Positions 10,543-21,746 of a stretch of 64,000 bases of DNA are shown in pieces. This DNA comes from an uncultured Bacteriovoracaceae bacterium (lineage in GTDB: Bacteria > Bdellovibrionota > Bacteriovoracia > Bacteriovoracales > Bacteriovoracaceae): positions 210,336 through 274,335 of the forward strand of contig CALHBF010000015.1 of the NCBI GenBank assembly GCA_937931205.1, read 5' to 3'. The notes under the pieces are model-generated. The model had not been told where the DNA came from. It did not search any database and worked only from the letters and a program-made list of their open reading frames with translations. A program made the translations under genes and the position numbers. Numbering within the stretch: the stretch's first letter is position 1; every line of letters starts with the position of its first letter.

Positions 10543-11813
10543 TTTTCCGATTCCTTTCTTGCCAGACCTATACCATCATGGAATGTGATCTCGATTAATT
10601 CATTGTTCTCAAGCTTACTATATTGTTCTTGAGAACTCAAAACACCCTTCTTGGTTTTTACAAAACTGTAACCTCTGCCCAAGACTCCTTTCGGATTAAG
10701 AGCAGAAAGCACTTGATTAAGTCGCTTCAGATTTTCCTGATGAGCATTCATCATACTTTTTTCTGAATAGTTGAGTCTCATAAAGAGTTCATCTAAAATT
10801 TGTGAATTTTCGGTAAGACCGATCAGTTCTTCTCCCCTATTCATCAGGCGAATCTGATTGAGTCGTTGCTCATCTTTTTTCAATTTCTGCCAGATGAACT
10901 GCAACATTTGGCGCGGATGAGACCTGTGAGTCAAAATTTGAATTCTCTGTGAAATTTTAATCATCTCATTTTTTAAATGAGTGGAGGCATAAGAGAGGCG
11001 ATCTTTTAGTTGGGTCTGGGGCTGAGAAATCATCTCTGCTGCGGCCGTTGGAGTTTCAGCTCGCAGATCTGCCACAAAATCACAAAGAGTAAAATCCACC
11101 TGATGTCCGACAGCACTAATTACTGGAATCTCACATCGATCAATAAAGCGCACCAGATCCTCAGAATTAAACGCCCATAAATCTTCAATACTTCCGCCAC
11201 CACGGGCAAAAACAATTAACTCGATTCCAGAAATATCCTGAGCGGCACGAAGTGCATTGATTAAAGATCTTGGAGCAGCATCTCCTTGCACTAAAGCAGG
11301 AATAATCGTCACATCAAACCAAAGGCTTCTACGTTTAATAACATTCAAAAAATCTTGTAGAGCTGCTCCTTGGGGAGCTGTAATGATTGCAATTTTTTTG
11401 GGATAAACAGGAATTGCTTTTTTACGTTCTAAATCAAAAAGACCTTCTGCAGATAACTTGGCCTTTAACTTCTCAAATTGGATTTTTAATTGTCCTTCGC
11501 CTGCTGGAAAAACTCTTTTTCCCAGAAGCTGGAAGGTTCCTCTTTTTTGATAAACACTGATAGGTCCTAAGATGGTGATCTTATCTCCATCTTTAAGGTT
11601 TCTCATCAATGGATTTCTCATAGCATCTTGTTTAAAGACTGCACATGACAGAGAGGCTTCTTCATCTGAGAGGGTAAAATAATAATGGCCGGCAGAAGAG
11701 GAGGAGAGATTGGAAATCTCTCCTTGAACAACGACTTCCTGGAAGTCTTCTTCTAATAAACTTTTTATGGCATGGACCAGCTCTGAAACACTGGCCGCAT
11801 TAAAATCCATCAT
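10539..11813 (-). CDS. xseA: Exodeoxyribonuclease VII large subunit
   Basis: Large subunit of the cytosolic nuclease that degrades single-stranded DNA from both ends. The 424 aa include an N-terminal OB-fold (about 1-100, SVSELVHAIKSLLEEDF...VVQGEISN) and the catalytic domain with the conserved blocks IAIITAPQGAA, ARGGGSIEDLWAFN, and SAVGHQVDFTLCDFVAD followed by RAETPTAAAE. A helical C-terminal stretch follows. The small subunit gene xseB is not seen. The ATG overlaps the ctpA stop (ATGA). A second ATG follows directly. The next gene overlaps its stop in the same way. Confidence 0.93.
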   Translation of the reverse strand: MMDFNAASVSELVHAIKSLLEEDFQEVVVQGEISNLSSSSAGHYYFTLSDEEASLSCAVFKQDAMRNPLMRNLKDGDKITILGPISVYQKRGTFQLLGKRVFPAGEGQLKIQFEKLKAKLSAEGLFDLERKKAIPVYPKKIAIITAPQGAALQDFLNVIKRRSLWFDVTIIPALVQGDAAPRSLINALRAAQDISGIELIVFARGGGSIEDLWAFNSEDLVRFIDRCEIPVISAVGHQVDFTLCDFVADLRAETPTAAAEMISQPQTQLKDRLSYASTHLKNEMIKISQRIQILTHRSHPRQMLQFIWQKLKKDEQRLNQIRLMNRGEELIGLTENSQILDELFMRLNYSEKSMMNAHQENLKRLNQVLSALNPKGVLGRGYSFVKTKKGVLSSQEQYSKLENNELIEITFHDGIGLARKESEK

Positions 11814-13207
11814 TTCTTATTTTTAGTTTTTTCAAAAGAGTCAAAGCCCATCAGGTACTTGATCGCTGACAGAACTTGGTAATCTTCTTTAGGGTTAAAA
11901 GTTTTAAAGATATCATCCTTCTCTTTCGATCCGGCCTTCTTCTTCTCTTCTAACTCTTTAATCTTTTTAGCACGCTCTTCTTTCTCACTTTCAAGACGTG
12001 CCTTCATTTCTTCTGGAGTTTCAATTGTTGCCGTCAGGTGATTACGCAGATCCTTTTCTCTGATGTAGCGATCATCTCTCAGACTCTTATCAAAGCTTTC
12101 CTGATCAATTTCAAACAGCCCCACATCTGGAGTAATACCTACGGCCTGAATTTTTCTATCAAGCGGAGTCATATACTGAGCAATCGTTAATTTAACTCCA
12201 CGGTCTTTATCAAGTTGAGCAACTGTTTGCACAGATCCTTTACCGAAAGACTGAGACCCCATAATCACTGCACGTTTATGATCCTGAAGAGCACCTGCTA
12301 CGATCTCTGAAGCCGAAGCTGATGAACCGTTAATCAAAACAACTAAGGGAGTTGTTAAATCTTTGAAGCCAGATTTTTTAACATAACGGATTTCTTTATT
12401 CTGAGGATCACGAGCTTCAGTTGATACTACCACTCCTTCACTTAAGAATAATGAAGAAATATCAACGGCCTGATCAAGTAGTCCACCTGGATTTGAACGA
12501 AGATCAAGAATAATACCCTTGATTCCGCCACGGGCCTGTTTCTGTAATTTAGTAAGAGCTTCTACTACAGAAGTTGTTGAATGCTTCTGGAATTGAGTCA
12601 GACGAATAAAAGCATAGTTATCTTGAACAAGATCATACTTCACTGGCTTAATTTTAATCACTTCACGAGTCATGGTATGCTGTTTTACACCATCGGCTCC
12701 TTCACGAATAATTCCGAGAGTGATTTTCTGTCCAATCTTTCCTCTCATCTTTTCAATAACCTGATCAAGAGACATTCCAACGATTGGCTCATGATTGATT
12801 TCAACAATTCTATCTCTTGGCTTTAGACCTGAACGAAATGCGGGAGTATCTTCAATGGGAGTAATCACATAAATGATTCCATCTTTTTGACTTACTTCAA
12901 GTCCAAGTCCTCCAAACTCTCCCTTCGTATCATTCTGCATTTTTTCAAAATATTCTTTATTCAAAAAAGCAGAATGAGGATCAAGAGTTTCCATCATTCC
13001 TTTCAATGCTCCCTCTACTAACTTCTCTGTTGAAACAGGACGATAGTATTGAGTTTCAACTAAATGTAGAACTTTGTTAAAAAGTTCAAGTTGCTCAAAA
13101 CGTGATTTATTTTCTGTGATTTTGGGAGCAGCAGTTGTCTGTGCTAAAAGTGTTGTAGGAAGAACTGCACTTGATAAGGCAAGTGCCACGAGGAAATGAG
13201 AAAACAT
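11810..13207 (-). CDS. ctpA: C-terminal processing protease (S41)
   Basis: Periplasmic serine protease of the CtpA/Prc family, 465 aa with an N-terminal signal (to about residue 22, LLAQ). The PDZ domain is at about 95-175 (GGLGLEVSQ...GLKPRDRIVEIN). The catalytic Ser-Lys dyad is S298 (NGSSASASEI) and K323 (SFGKGSVQT). The C-terminus is highly charged. In many Gram-negatives such proteases trim lipoproteins and peptidoglycan hydrolases, and here it lies with FtsEX, an EnvC-like protein and an M23 enzyme. GGAG lies 7 bases before the ATG. The upstream spacer holds RNA-element copy 1 on the opposite strand. Confidence 0.92.
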   Translation of the reverse strand: MFSHFLVALALSSAVLPTTLLAQTTAAPKITENKSRFEQLELFNKVLHLVETQYYRPVSTEKLVEGALKGMMETLDPHSAFLNKEYFEKMQNDTKGEFGGLGLEVSQKDGIIYVITPIEDTPAFRSGLKPRDRIVEINHEPIVGMSLDQVIEKMRGKIGQKITLGIIREGADGVKQHTMTREVIKIKPVKYDLVQDNYAFIRLTQFQKHSTTSVVEALTKLQKQARGGIKGIILDLRSNPGGLLDQAVDISSLFLSEGVVVSTEARDPQNKEIRYVKKSGFKDLTTPLVVLINGSSASASEIVAGALQDHKRAVIMGSQSFGKGSVQTVAQLDKDRGVKLTIAQYMTPLDRKIQAVGITPDVGLFEIDQESFDKSLRDDRYIREKDLRNHLTATIETPEEMKARLESEKEERAKKIKELEEKKKAGSKEKDDIFKTFNPKEDYQVLSAIKYLMGFDSFEKTKNKK

Positions 13208-13242
13208 GTAGTAGCTCCATCGTTAAAATGATCTGAAGTTGA

Positions 13243-13389
13243 CTAACTCAGGGGTGGCCAACTGAAAATCAATTTAGTGAAGTTAACTAGCTGGTAGAAG
13301 GCGGCAGGAAAATCTAAATCTTGCAGGATAGCTCTCTATGAAATGAGTTATTTTACAAGTAAAGGTTTCGAGCTAGACCCCTGAGTTAG
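13243..13389 (+). ncRNA. Candidate structured RNA element, copy 1
   Basis: A 147-base intergenic element closed by a perfect 13-bp stem (13243-13255 with 13377-13389). Inside are a hairpin GCAGG/CTTGC (13304-13308 with 13320-13324) and a helix TAGCTC/GAGCTA (13329-13334 with 13370-13375). Copy 2 lies on the minus strand at 20766-20913 and has the same architecture. Blocks GGGGTGGCCAACTGAAAA, the 20-mer at 13294-13313 and TTCGAGCTAGACCCC are identical in both, while the closing stems differ with compensation. The GCAGG/CTTGC helix contains a G-T step that pairs as G-U only if this strand is the RNA. I recognise no known family. No clear promoter or terminator is visible, so expression is inferred. 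Confidence 0.6.
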
Positions 13390-13410
13390 CTAATATCACA
13401 AAATGATCTA

Positions 13411-14421
13411 CTAGATTTTACTAACTACTTGATTCTCTAACCACAAAATAGTGTTCTGAGCGGTGTTTTTCTTTCTTACTTCAAAGTAGAGAGACTGAGG
13501 TGTTGAGTCTTTGTGAGTATAACCAATAATGTCTTGAGAGCTGACATTATCATTCTTTTTTACTTTGATGTTCATTCTGCCTAAGAAAACGGTACGTAGG
13601 TCATTGCCGTGATCAATCAATACCACTTGCCCGTAAGAGGCCAGATCTCCTGAATACATCACTTTTCCAGAAGCTGGGGCCTTAATTGGCTGAATCGAAT
13701 CATACTTGAACGTCACCCCTTTATCAGAGGGAGTCATCGAAATGAAATGATCAACAGGGTTTGGAAATACTTTTTCTGCTTTTTTTAAATTAACAGGAGC
13801 TTCTGAAAAAGTTTTTTTGATTGCTGCAAATTTAACTTTAACTTTGTCTTCTTGTACCTTTTTCTCAAGCTCACCTTTCTTCTCTGAGGCTACCTGATAT
13901 TTGGCCATCAAATTCTGTTTAGAACTTTCAAGATCTAAAATAACTTTCTCCAGTGTCGTCTCTTCTCTCTTTAGCTCTTCGAGTTTAATCTCAAAACTTG
14001 CTACTTTGTGAGCAAAGGTACTCAACTCCAGATTTTGGGCCTTCAGTTTATTCTGCGCCTGACGAAGAAGATCCAAATGAATCTTTTTTTGCCATAGCGG
14101 AGATTCCTCTGACTCGGCTTCTAAAAGATAATTGGTCACGATCTTTTTGTTATCTTTTTCAGTTTTAATTAATTTGCGCTGAAGAGTTTTTAACTCTTCC
14201 TTATAAAGACCGACATCATTCTCAAACTTTTTAATTTCTTCCAAGTTCGATTGATAGAGATTTGATTTTTGTGAGATCTCTTTTTCCAGAGTACTCAGAC
14301 GTGCTCCCATACTCGTCACTTCACTGCGATGACGAGCAAGTTCATCCTGCACACGCGGCTTCTTCTGTGCCAGAGCACTAAAAGAGAGTGTTAAGATAAG
14401 AGAAGCACTAAGTAATTTCAT
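13411..14421 (-). CDS. EnvC-like periplasmic coiled-coil protein with a degenerate LytM domain
   Basis: A 336-aa protein: signal peptide (MKLLSASLILTLSFSALAQ), long coiled coil (about 25-200), then a C-terminal LytM/M23 domain. The catalytic residues are missing: the usual HxxxD site reads TFKYDS and the HLH site reads SLYFEVR. As with EnvC, it should activate an amidase rather than cut peptidoglycan itself. I start at ATG 14419-14421, which overlaps the ftsX stop (ATGA) and opens the signal peptide. The frame can be extended upstream but would then lack a signal. Direct linkage to ftsE-ftsX supports the role, since FtsEX drives EnvC in the division septum. Confidence 0.82.
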   Translation of the reverse strand: MKLLSASLILTLSFSALAQKKPRVQDELARHRSEVTSMGARLSTLEKEISQKSNLYQSNLEEIKKFENDVGLYKEELKTLQRKLIKTEKDNKKIVTNYLLEAESEESPLWQKKIHLDLLRQAQNKLKAQNLELSTFAHKVASFEIKLEELKREETTLEKVILDLESSKQNLMAKYQVASEKKGELEKKVQEDKVKVKFAAIKKTFSEAPVNLKKAEKVFPNPVDHFISMTPSDKGVTFKYDSIQPIKAPASGKVMYSGDLASYGQVVLIDHGNDLRTVFLGRMNIKVKKNDNVSSQDIIGYTHKDSTPQSLYFEVRKKNTAQNTILWLENQVVSKI

Positions 14422-15218
14422 AGTGAAGGTTTCCACTTCCATTCTTGCAGAGTAAAAGTCCAAATCACTGATAAAATCATGAACAGAACAAGTGAATCAA
14501 TGATTCCCAATGTTCCATTCCAAAGTCCCATAAGAAAAAAACCAACAGCAACAGCACCGATCCCAGCGGCCAGCGATTTAGCAGCGACCATCTTCTTGCG
14601 CTGAAACTTCTCGATGAGATAAGAACGAGAACGGAAACTGTCATAAGTTAACCAGAAACTGATGATCCAGAACAGAGCAACAACTCCAACCACTCCCCAG
14701 TCCCCAGCTGAGTTTAAAAACTCATAAAAAGGATGAGAGTTCATTACTTTCGTTACTTCCGGAAATTTTACTTCTGTAGCCGATATATGATCATTACTTC
14801 CCAGCTTTACCACTTGGTCACGAACAAACTTTAAACTCTCATTAGAAAGAGTCGGACTAAGCATCACACGAAGAGATTTTAATTCTAAAAACTTGGCATC
14901 AACTTCGTAATCAGTACCAAGAGTTTCAACCAGCTCGCTGATCTTTGATTTTGATTTCGTTGATTCCTGATCATCGATTGATACGACTCCAGGAAACTTC
15001 TTAATCAGTGTTACTAGTTTTCCAGCATCCACTGTGCCATCAACCACGGTAACAAAATAAGGATTCACTAATTTCTCAGGACTGATGCGTGAAATCGTCT
15101 GACCGATCCATTCTCTATGGGTCAGAGAAAAACAAAGAGCACAAGTCAGAAGGAAGAAAGCAATCCCCTTCACCAAAGACTCGTGGAGTGATTTAAAATA
15201 TTCTACTAGATAAAACAC
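14418..15218 (-). CDS. ftsX: Cell division permease-like protein FtsX
   Basis: Inner-membrane partner of FtsE, 266 aa. Four membrane segments are visible: about 17-35, then three in the C-terminal half (around VVGVVALFWIISFWL, AAGIGAVAVGFFLMGLW and IIDSLVLFMILSVIW), with a periplasmic domain of about 130 residues after the first. This is the FtsX topology. The start is a GTG at 15216-15218 that overlaps the end of ftsE by 13 bases, so the two are tightly coupled. With the next gene (EnvC-like) it forms the mechanotransmission module that turns on cell-wall cleavage during division. Confidence 0.85.
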   Translation of the reverse strand: MFYLVEYFKSLHESLVKGIAFFLLTCALCFSLTHREWIGQTISRISPEKLVNPYFVTVVDGTVDAGKLVTLIKKFPGVVSIDDQESTKSKSKISELVETLGTDYEVDAKFLELKSLRVMLSPTLSNESLKFVRDQVVKLGSNDHISATEVKFPEVTKVMNSHPFYEFLNSAGDWGVVGVVALFWIISFWLTYDSFRSRSYLIEKFQRKKMVAAKSLAAGIGAVAVGFFLMGLWNGTLGIIDSLVLFMILSVIWTFTLQEWKWKPSL

Positions 15219-19390: not shown

Positions 19391-20746
19391 TTAATTCAAG
19401 ATGTTAGTAAACATCGGAGAGAAGCATTTACCGAAATTCTGGGTTAATTGCCCTAAAACCTCACCCTCTCTATTCATAATGTATATTTCTTGGACGGCCT
19501 TGCGAGAATTAATGACCCTTTTACTAGTAAAAACAATGAATTCGCCATCAGGGCTGAAGATCGGATCTTCGTTAGAACCAAAGTCTTTTGTGAGTCTGAC
19601 TAGGTTTTGGCCATCGGCCCCTATCTTATAGATATCAAAGCCATTATCTACCCATGAAGCAAAAACAATCTCTTTTCCATCTGGACTAAAACGAGGGGTT
19701 GCATTGAATTTCCCTACAAAAGAGATGCGCTTAACGTCTTTCTCTGTTTGTGATGGATCCATCGTATAGATATGAGCGCGACCTGGACGGTTCGATAGGA
19801 AAGTCATCATTGAGCCATCTGCGGTAATAGATGGGTCTACATCTTCACCATAGTGGCTTGTTACTTTTCTCATCGCACTGGTAGCAAGGTTCATTTCGTA
19901 GATATCAGCATTTCCACCGGCAGTTAGAGTCAGATAAATAATATTAGGATCTCTTGAGTAAGTTGCCCCCGAGTTCAAACCTGGCTTGCTTGAAACTGTA
20001 GTCATACTCTTTGTTTGCAGATCATACATCTTTAAGTTGATGTTCTTGATGAGCTTCTTTTTATTACGGCTTGAGAGTGCCTGCTTATCTTCAATTACTG
20101 AGAAAAGAAGCTTTTTATTATCAGGAGAAATAGAAGGAGATAAAACGATAGAGTTGAAAGTTGTTAGCTTCTCAACACGACGTCCATCAAAGTCCATAAT
20201 ATAGAGTTCTTTTTCAATATCACGGGAACGAGTTGTTCTATCTGAGATGAAAACGATCTTTGATTTAAAGATAGAAGGCTTTCCTGTCATCGCTCGGTAA
20301 AACTTATCAGAGATTTCATGACCTTTAGAGCGCAGGTCATTGCTGTTCACTGTTACTGAATCAGTGAAAACCATTTTCCCGTCATGAATATTCCAAAGCT
20401 TAAACTTAGCTTCAACTCCACCGGAAGCAGGAACAATAGAAGAAGCGATAAAGAAGTTAATTCCATCCTCTTTCCATTGAGTCAGATTTTCAGTCGTGTA
20501 AGAGTTGGCCGACTTGTTATAAAGAACAGTATTGAATTTATGCTTATAGAAAACAAAGTTGTTTCGAATAAGATCAAGTAGTTCATTGGCCAATACTTTC
20601 TGAGAGCTCGAAAGATTACTTAATTCCGAAGAATCAATGACCAGTTTATCTTTTTCCTGCTCAGCATCCCCTACTGCAATAACTGCATCTTGAGAAAAAC
20701 TTGAAACAGAGAACATAACGAAGAATAGTGATAATAAAAATTTCAT
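19391..20746 (-). CDS. tolB: TolB-like periplasmic beta-propeller protein
   Basis: Periplasmic component of the Tol-Pal envelope system, 451 aa. A signal peptide (MKFLLSLFFVMFSVSSFSQ) is followed by the TolB N-terminal alpha/beta domain and a beta-propeller with repeated blades of the form SPDGKEIVFAS, NPxIxY and IYxMNxxG (about 170-445). TolB links Pal to the inner-membrane TolQRA motor and supports outer-membrane constriction. It follows the TolA/TonB-like gene after a 178-base gap that holds RNA-element copy 2. GGAG lies 5 bases before the ATG. No pal gene follows in this window. Confidence 0.85.
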   Translation of the reverse strand: MKFLLSLFFVMFSVSSFSQDAVIAVGDAEQEKDKLVIDSSELSNLSSSQKVLANELLDLIRNNFVFYKHKFNTVLYNKSANSYTTENLTQWKEDGINFFIASSIVPASGGVEAKFKLWNIHDGKMVFTDSVTVNSNDLRSKGHEISDKFYRAMTGKPSIFKSKIVFISDRTTRSRDIEKELYIMDFDGRRVEKLTTFNSIVLSPSISPDNKKLLFSVIEDKQALSSRNKKKLIKNINLKMYDLQTKSMTTVSSKPGLNSGATYSRDPNIIYLTLTAGGNADIYEMNLATSAMRKVTSHYGEDVDPSITADGSMMTFLSNRPGRAHIYTMDPSQTEKDVKRISFVGKFNATPRFSPDGKEIVFASWVDNGFDIYKIGADGQNLVRLTKDFGSNEDPIFSPDGEFIVFTSKRVINSRKAVQEIYIMNREGEVLGQLTQNFGKCFSPMFTNILN

Positions 20747-20765
20747 ATCGACTCCAATTAAGATT

Positions 20766-20913
20766 TCAATCTTGGGGGTCTAGCTCGAATCTCTCATTTG
20801 TAAGAAAACTCATCTCTAAGAGAGCTAAGGAGCAGGTTTTATTTTCCTGCCGCCTTCTACAATTTTGAAATTCAAAAAAATTATTCTTTTCAGTTGGCCA
20901 CCCCCAAGATTGA
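20766..20913 (-). ncRNA. Candidate structured RNA element, copy 2
   Basis: Minus-strand counterpart of the element at 13243-13389, 148 bases long. The closing stem has 14 bp (20766-20779 with 20900-20913). The hairpin GCAGG/CCTGC (20846-20850 with 20832-20836 on the plus strand) is fully Watson-Crick where copy 1 has a G-U. The TAGCTC/GAGCTA helix (20822-20827 with 20781-20786) is conserved. In this orientation it is co-directional with tolQRA and tolB and ends about 20 bases before the tolB ATG. Just 3' of the stem, AATCTT could pair with the stem's AAGATT, offering an alternative fold next to the tolB ribosome site. Confidence 0.6.
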
Positions 20914-20924
20914 CCAACAATCTC

Positions 20925-21746
20925 CTATAGAGGAAACCCGAGAATAATCCCATAAGTGGCCAGGCGAACTCCTACACTCTCAGATGGAGCAGGAAAAGGA
21001 GCAGCGTCTTTGACAGCTCTTAGGGCCTTGTCATCAAACTCTGCAACTCCTGAAGATTCTACCACCTCAGATTTCACCAACTGACCTTTATTATTTAAAT
21101 AAACTTTAACTCTACATTTTAAATTTTTGTTCATGAGGTAACTTGGAAGTTTCCAATGCACTCTCACCTTCTCAGGCATCGACTGAACATAGGCCGAGAA
21201 CTCAGAGCTTGCTTCACCCGTCACGTCCCCTACTAAAGCAGTTCCGGCAGAAACTTTGTTTCCTTCCATAATAAGGGAATCAAGAACCTTGCTGCCATTG
21301 CCAGAGATGATCGTGTTAGTAGGCTTTTTACCAGGTACTTCTTTTTTCTTTTCTACTTTTTTAGAAGAATAACCTGCTAGAAGATTATTGAAGTCGCTCT
21401 TTTTTTTCTGCTCTTCAATAACAAGATCACCTTCTTTAATCACATCTTCCTTCACTTCTTCTTTAGGAGTCTCGGCTACCGTAGGTGCTGGAGCCTCTTC
21501 CGGTTTTGCCTCGGGCTCTGCAGGAGCTGCATTCTTTTGCAATTCCTTCAATTCCTGAACTGTGAACTTAGGCATCCCCACCACATCCACACGCACCGAT
21601 GAACGGATAATTTCGATTTCATTATTGCGCGAAGGGTGAAGAAGAACTTTCGTTGCAAAGAGAGCGAATAAAATGAAGAGGACGTGTGCCCCAAAGGAAA
21701 TCACAAAAGATTTTTTAATATCGTCTGTAACGTTTAAACTCGTCAT
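20925..21746 (-). CDS. TolA/TonB-like energy-transducing protein
   Basis: A 273-aa inner-membrane-anchored protein. One N-terminal membrane helix (about 13-35) is followed by a Pro/Glu/Lys-rich linker (70-120) and a C-terminal TonB/TolA domain (about 185-273) with YVQSMPEKVRVHW, YLNNKGQLVKSEVVESSG and FDDKALRAVKDAAPFP. It should span the periplasm and pass the energy harvested by TolQ-TolR to TolB/Pal or an outer-membrane receptor. The tolQ-tolR-this-tolB order favours a TolA role. It starts one base after the tolR stop. Confidence 0.82.
   Translation of the reverse strand: MTSLNVTDDIKKSFVISFGAHVLFILFALFATKVLLHPSRNNEIEIIRSSVRVDVVGMPKFTVQELKELQKNAAPAEPEAKPEEAPAPTVAETPKEEVKEDVIKEGDLVIEEQKKKSDFNNLLAGYSSKKVEKKKEVPGKKPTNTIISGNGSKVLDSLIMEGNKVSAGTALVGDVTGEASSEFSAYVQSMPEKVRVHWKLPSYLMNKNLKCRVKVYLNNKGQLVKSEVVESSGVAEFDDKALRAVKDAAPFPAPSESVGVRLATYGIILGFPL

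Follow-up and report, generated by a model that had tools for sequence, protein, structure and literature searches.

A small DNA element with covarying, paired ends in a Bacteriovoracaceae genome, likely a mobile insertion rather than a conserved RNA gene

A 165-letter stretch of DNA occurs in three copies in the draft assembly of a Bacteriovoracaceae bacterium, two of them within the window analysed here (64,000 nucleotides of one contig), and a small mobile element with covarying ends is likely a better account of it than a conserved RNA gene. The three inserts, the only copies known and from a single draft genome of 86% estimated completeness, probably represent a single MITE-like element, likely mobilised in trans, which would be recognised by the combination of its paired ends and five fixed blocks in its interior. 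The initial annotation had described two copies with covarying stems as a likely new structured RNA. On re-examination of the sequence the two copies, their positions, their orientations and three common blocks were found as claimed, and the element is indeed intergenic, structured and covarying; however, the copies are insertions, whose terminal inverted repeat is formed by the covarying stem.

Copy 1 (13235-13399, plus strand, 165 bp) lies between genes for a CtpA-like S41 peptidase (11810-13207) and an EnvC-like M23 peptidase (13411-14463), both on the minus strand, and is thus antisense to both. Copy 2 (20756-20921, minus strand, 166 bp) is flanked by a TolB-like gene (19391-20746, minus strand) and by one encoding a TonB C-terminal domain (20925-21746, minus strand), and has the same direction as both. 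Copy 3 (L002:1484-1648) is on contig C8 of the same genome, with a polyprenyl synthetase gene downstream. Pfam assigns the neighbours to S41 peptidase with PDZ and M23 peptidase at site 1, to TonB C-terminal and PD40 (TolB-like) at site 2, and to polyprenyl synthetase downstream of copy 3, whose upstream gene has no Pfam family. Over the core, the other two copies match copy 1 by BLAST at 80% and 76% identity (copy 3 and copy 2, in the order listed).

An indication of insertion is that the same gene pairs are adjacent in congeners and that the gaps between them are much shorter there. The site 1 gap is 203 bases here vs 22-29 bases in 23 of 24 congener loci (one was not measurable), and the site 2 gap is 178 bases vs -4 to 10 in all 25 congeners. 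At site 3 the gap is 187 bases vs 1-12 in 13 of 14 congener loci (again one not measurable), the 14 being those of the 25 congeners whose downstream gene passed the cut-off and the other 11 having no match; in a few of these congener gaps (e.g. 2, -4, 1) the automatic start call is doubtful. The insert is therefore absent from the empty sites at all three positions. Copy 1 is bounded by the 10-base direct repeat AAAATGATCT (13225-13234 and 13400-13409, identical at 10/10 bases), a likely target-site duplication, and copy 3 by AAGGAAAGA on both sides (9 bases). The two pairs of repeats stand at identical offsets from the core (-26/+18); among 2000 mononucleotide shuffles of the flanks, 20 gave repeats of at least 7 bases in both copies, and none of these had matching offsets. 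The ends are marked jointly by direct repeats and empty sites, so that the element is 165 bp, and the 147- and 148-base units originally delimited were real copies of what is in fact a larger unit. The element with one repeat amounts to 175 bp for copy 1 and 174 bp for copy 3, the removal of which leaves gaps of 28 and 13 bases.

Copy 2 is less clearly bounded. No 9-10-base duplication is visible around it, and only GGAG is exactly repeated at its upstream (20922-20925) and downstream (20752-20755) edges, the latter being the likely ribosome-binding site of the TolB-like gene; with one mismatch the repeat extends to 7 bases (ATAGGAG/ATTGGAG). Its ends are placed where GGAG and the comparison with the other two copies suggest. 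The empty site in congeners reads e.g. TAGGAGTCATTCATG, and by empty-site comparison the insert is 170 bp, with GGAG on both sides; its removal leaves a gap of 8 bases. The three gaps left after removal (28, 8, 13) fall within the congener ranges or one base off them. An alternative history in which only the core was inserted into an existing palindrome predicts empty gaps of 72, 48 and 57 bases; gaps of these lengths are absent from the congeners measured. A short palindrome, GACTGATAATCAGT, occurs right after the upstream stop codon in five congener loci (L084, L091, L093, L101, L104), where it occupies the gap upstream of the CtpA-like gene, the one into which copy 1 was inserted here.

The ancestral gaps that received the three insertions separate same-strand genes and measure no more than 28 bases; in each case the direct repeat on the upstream side starts at, or at most 2 bases from, the upstream stop codon (13225-13409, 20752-20925 and L002:1475-1657, repeats included). 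The likely ribosome-binding site falls within the repeat at sites 2 and 3, and the downstream gene thus keeps one. Insertion into narrow same-strand gaps looks non-random, such gaps of up to 30 bases making up about 3.6% of the intergenic bases of the window (116/3188), a figure for which the limit was set after the sites had been seen and the background is one window with hand-picked reading frames. Because of this, and because tolerated insertions are filtered by selection, the apparent site preference is not leaned on.

These observations bear directly on the possibility that the copies are small RNA genes or cis-acting RNA domains, anciently duplicated and conserved in place. The strong conservation of internal blocks and the compensated stems described below do resemble a structured RNA, and copies 2 and 3 lie in sense just upstream of genes. 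Copy 1 however runs antisense to the operon around it and so speaks against cis-regulation of a neighbouring gene by RNA, as a riboswitch would be expected in sense orientation in every copy; one has to go 5 kb further, to 18562, for the start of the next plus-strand open reading frame of at least 100 codons, and this frame is contained in a longer one on the minus strand. In a search for promoters of the sigma-70 type none was matched at copy 1, and one near copy 2 is outside the element and on the other strand. Since moreover all three copies are inserts relative to congeners and two of them keep intact flanking repeats, conservation in place is improbable.

In copy 1 the 13-bp closing stem is formed by arms at 13243-13255 and 13377-13389 (plus strand) and is the inner part of the terminal inverted repeat. 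The stem has a different sequence in each of the three copies and is paired in all of them, over 12 bp in copy 3, and the four compensated base pairs reported between the stems of copies 1 and 2, each change being matched on the other arm, are confirmed. In the three-copy alignment every outer-helix cell whose two sides both carry letters is paired (100%), with 6 of 13 pairs altered on both arms; when all three helices are taken together, such a number of two-sided changes was attained in 1 of 500 shuffles, and sliding the partner by 1-3 columns reduces the cells paired from 98.6% to 21-49%. Pairing beyond the closing stem is imperfect in the outer bases and is absent from the fold in copy 2. 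Against dinucleotide shuffles copies 1 and 2 are strongly folded (z -5.0 and -5.7, with 0/200 shuffles as stable in each case), and copy 3 only modestly better than its shuffles (z -2.1, 6/200 as stable).

A hairpin change from G-U to G-C (GCAGG/CTTGC to CCTGC) had been taken to set the strand; it is real in copies 1 and 2, but the same position is a non-standard pair in copy 3. With 60 mononucleotide shuffles each, the reverse strand folds with z -3.6, -4.7 and -4.4 vs -4.5, -4.8 and -3.0 for the strand given above, which scores better in two copies, the opposite strand doing so in one. Because the reverse strand folds comparably and the diagnostic pair fails in copy 3, the strand is not set by this evidence. 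A covariance model of the element (R1) also weakly matches the opposite strand of both window copies (E 0.0012 and 0.036), as expected for a near-palindrome.

Conservation is distributed in blocks. Five blocks are found on the plus strand of copy 1: A (GGGGTGGCCAACTGAAAA, 13251-13268), B (GTAGAAGGCGGCAGGAAAAT, 13294-13313), C (TAGCTCTCT, 13329-13337), D (TTACA, 13353-13357) and E (TTCGAGCTAGACCCC, 13367-13381). All are the same in the three copies except for a single difference in block B of copy 3, and over their 67 bases 199 of 201 pairwise positions agree (99%). The four loops between blocks match at 113 of 176 aligned positions (64%) and have near-fixed lengths; the spacers nevertheless vary by 1-2 bases among copies (25/26/25; 15/13/14), so that no reading frame is common across the element. 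The outer arms are the least conserved part, identical between copies at 57 of 96 positions (59%). Blocks at 99% beside loops at 64% are unlike a decaying DNA repeat and may point to a functional folded RNA or single-stranded DNA. Block C carries TAGCTC that can pair with GAGCTA of block E, both being invariant and hence silent as to covariation, and inspection by eye suggests a possible pseudoknot in which GTA (block B) would pair with TAC (block D).

The initial annotation had argued that a plain DNA repeat would not keep pairing in this way. Here the pairing sits on terminal inverted repeats, an outcome that had been named beforehand as counting against an RNA. Templated repair is known to perfect palindromes, and plain palindromic DNA whose arms are kept identical by such repair at quasi-palindromes, with no selection on pairing, would acquire matched changes without any RNA. 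It would leave unexplained the 99% conserved blocks and the near-fixed spacings, and the folds show the outer bases of each end to stay imperfectly paired; this origin of the covariation is very improbable.

Another explanation is an ordinary MITE, i.e. an internally deleted insertion sequence whose DDE transposase likely binds the double-stranded terminal inverted repeats. The two arms would then match within a copy because both ends fit one protein, and the copies would differ because they stem from several subfamilies. The small size, the intergenic location, the inverted ends (12-13 bp beside the core in each copy), the protein-free insert and the exact 10- and 9-base direct repeats of two of the three copies (copy 2 having GGAG only) fit this description, these being terms in which MITEs are described in reviews (PMC2229807, PMC10969869, in their available parts). 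A DDE_Tnp_1 match is moreover present in the genome. This single match (G000:C14:40135-40404, in L135) however belongs to an apparently broken gene, its pieces lying in different frames, and the locus shares no more than chance-level short matches with the element. A fixed interior and least-conserved outer arms are also the reverse of what is expected of an element whose end sequence is recognised by one transposase. Since the ends are shared neither among the copies nor with the one transposase locus found, the element is called MITE-like and not a MITE of a known insertion sequence, and the ordinary-MITE explanation, while not negligible, is rather unlikely. That the outermost bases differ between copies, unlike those of MITEs moved by one transposase, is also a point against the preferred reading of an element mobilised in trans.

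A plausible mobilising enzyme was not found among the Y1, DDE_Tnp_1 and reverse transcriptase families searched in the own genome. The Y1 (RAYT-type) transposases that accompany REP/REPIN repeats gave 0 matches to PF01797 in this 86% complete genome. Reverse transcriptase is represented by a single PF00078 match, on contig C14 (G000:C14:116660-117055; gene at L130:1078-2709, plus strand), in a protein of 543 residues whose best PADLOC match is RT_UG9_small (E 1.7e-91), and the locus is likely one of phage defence. A second open frame comes next, overlapping the reverse transcriptase gene, and continues beyond the edge of the locus.

The reverse transcriptase bears on a further explanation, that the folded transcript is itself the moving form and is copied into DNA at a staggered break by a SINE-like retroposition. 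Paired ends of free sequence with internal blocks and spacings fixed, direct repeats of unequal length (10, 9 and 4 bases) and insertions into gaps between same-strand genes would all be in keeping with it. The only reverse transcriptase match, on the other hand, is nearest to a UG9-type defence model and not to a retroelement, neither folding nor pairing sets the strand, and a transcript of the element is hypothetical. To our knowledge SINE-like mobile structured RNA elements are not known in bacteria, and retroposition of this kind has little probability. Retron non-coding RNAs are about 150-200 nt long and have variable but complementary outer arms (a1/a2), much as seen here; in retrons, however, the reverse transcriptase gene adjoins the non-coding RNA, and the copies of the element have none adjacent, the PF00078 match being on contig C14 only.

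Comparison of loops and flanking repeats gives an indication of when the copies moved. Between copies, 36% of the aligned loop sites differ. Had insertion taken place as long ago as this divergence, and if loops and flanking repeats change at like rates, an intact 10-base repeat would be expected with p about 0.012 and an intact 9-base repeat with p about 0.019, or 0.12 if its downstream copy were held by selection. Because intact repeats are improbable at that age, the copies had apparently already diverged before inserting, and the matched arm changes would have arisen in active source elements. Copy 2, which lacks a clear repeat, could be older.

Relatives of the element were sought in several ways. 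In BLAST of copy 1 against 38 genomes the only matches were in its own genome. The R1 model recovered the three own copies among 26 genomes of the genus, with 8 weak matches in 7 others (best E 0.13) among the candidates admitted by a first-pass filter, and no further copy in the own genome at E up to 1. A set of 368 phylum genomes, the own genome and those of congeners among them, was searched under stricter filters with up to 8 scored candidates for each genome listed and gave one other match (E 0.005 for a single genome); it spans 98 bases, reaches into the ends of two long reading frames, lacks the middle blocks and was taken as chance. Beyond the third copy in the own genome, the covariance-model search thus gave no credible covarying copy in the other genomes searched. 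Block A with up to 3 mismatches was found in the own genome at the three copies and at 4 other places, none with block E in a 3-kb locus; the same pattern reversed as a control gave 0. Copy 1 had no blastn match among phages and plasmids. Of seven patterns searched in viral contigs two gave hits, 13 with block E only as judged by eye and 1 to which R1 gave no match; in genome contigs a strict pattern found none and a loose one 16 stretches, none scoring with R1 at the pattern site, exact-word patterns of this kind being apt to miss distant relatives.

The element has no match in Rfam (15): the window has 0 matches at the gathering score, and at E up to 10 the loci of the three copies have 3 weak ones, none of them on the element. 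Likewise tmRNA, tRNA-like RNAs and 6S were considered and set aside, there being no ARAGORN gene and no Rfam match. Elsewhere, L001:465-780 weakly matches the Rickettsia sRNA47 model (24.9 bits vs a cut-off of 60; E 0.0032); this is off the element and probably due to chance. Among the matches listed in a literature search on bcr, MITE, ERIC and mobile structured RNA, with subscription papers mostly outside its coverage, none names the element.

Several described families share features with it. ERIC/IRU, RUP, Correia/NEMIS, RPE and YPAL are reviewed as bacterial MITE-like repeats (Delihas 2007, PMC2229807) that, like the element, are below 200 bp; they are non-autonomous and usually have inverted ends, as here, and target-site duplications, as is likely for copies 1 and 3, and for their transcripts a long stem is predicted in which the 5' end pairs with the 3' end. 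According to the available part of the same review most of these have TA termini, as in ERIC and RUP, and their movement by transposases lacked experimental support in 2007. The copies described here instead begin with GA, AT and TG and end with AC, TT and AC; compensated changes alter their ends, the interior stays fixed, and there are three copies only. In Bacillus cereus the group A repeats bcr1-bcr3 are described as MITE-like and mobile, bcr1 being 167 bp (147 bp in earlier literature) with 11 to 130 copies per genome, and bcr10 and bcr18 as having conserved secondary structures and as transcribed in 5' UTRs (PMC6542083, PMC3446304, PMC2267715). The likeness to bcr repeats is one of description, and bcr mobility is tied in the available text to a repeated TTTAT; in the 41 bases next to copies 1 and 2 there is a single instance of this motif or of its complement, which lies 18 bases outside copy 2. 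QMITE2 of Coxiella burnetii has similar dimensions (direct repeats 7-9 bp, inverted repeats 23-29 bp, core 113-145 bp), and covarying arms are not described for it in the available part of PMC10969869.

In the mechanism proposed for mobilisation in trans, an enzyme supplied from elsewhere would recognise the paired ends together with the five internal blocks and not a fixed end sequence, and pairing of the ends would be needed for movement. The form recognised may be duplex DNA with its inverted repeats, single-stranded DNA or RNA. Staggered cutting would produce the direct repeats as target-site duplications. Pairing would be maintained by active source elements, and not by selection at the present sites; such diverged, active sources are hypothetical, and they and the enzyme would presumably reside outside the assembled genome. 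Copies 2 and 3 are predicted to be transcribed as hairpins inside operon messages, upstream of the ribosome-binding sites of the TolB-like and polyprenyl synthetase genes. A bolder form of the proposal, which we hold to be doubtful, is that of a mobile element recognised by shape, in which the moving form would be a folded single strand, perhaps an RNA that is copied back into DNA, with a fixed core and with ends that may change but stay complementary; within operons it would land in the narrow gap from a stop codon to the ribosome-binding site that follows.

When intergenic repeats have covarying stems, these are easily taken for functional RNA, and here they are carried on the inverted ends of a likely mobile element; since the same covariation signal can arise there, comparison with empty sites should precede a claim for a new RNA. 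The insertions into narrow same-strand gaps would provide a natural test of the effect of a hairpin on the expression of the TolB-like gene. Should movement require the pairing, the element would offer a simple example of recognition by shape and not by end sequence.
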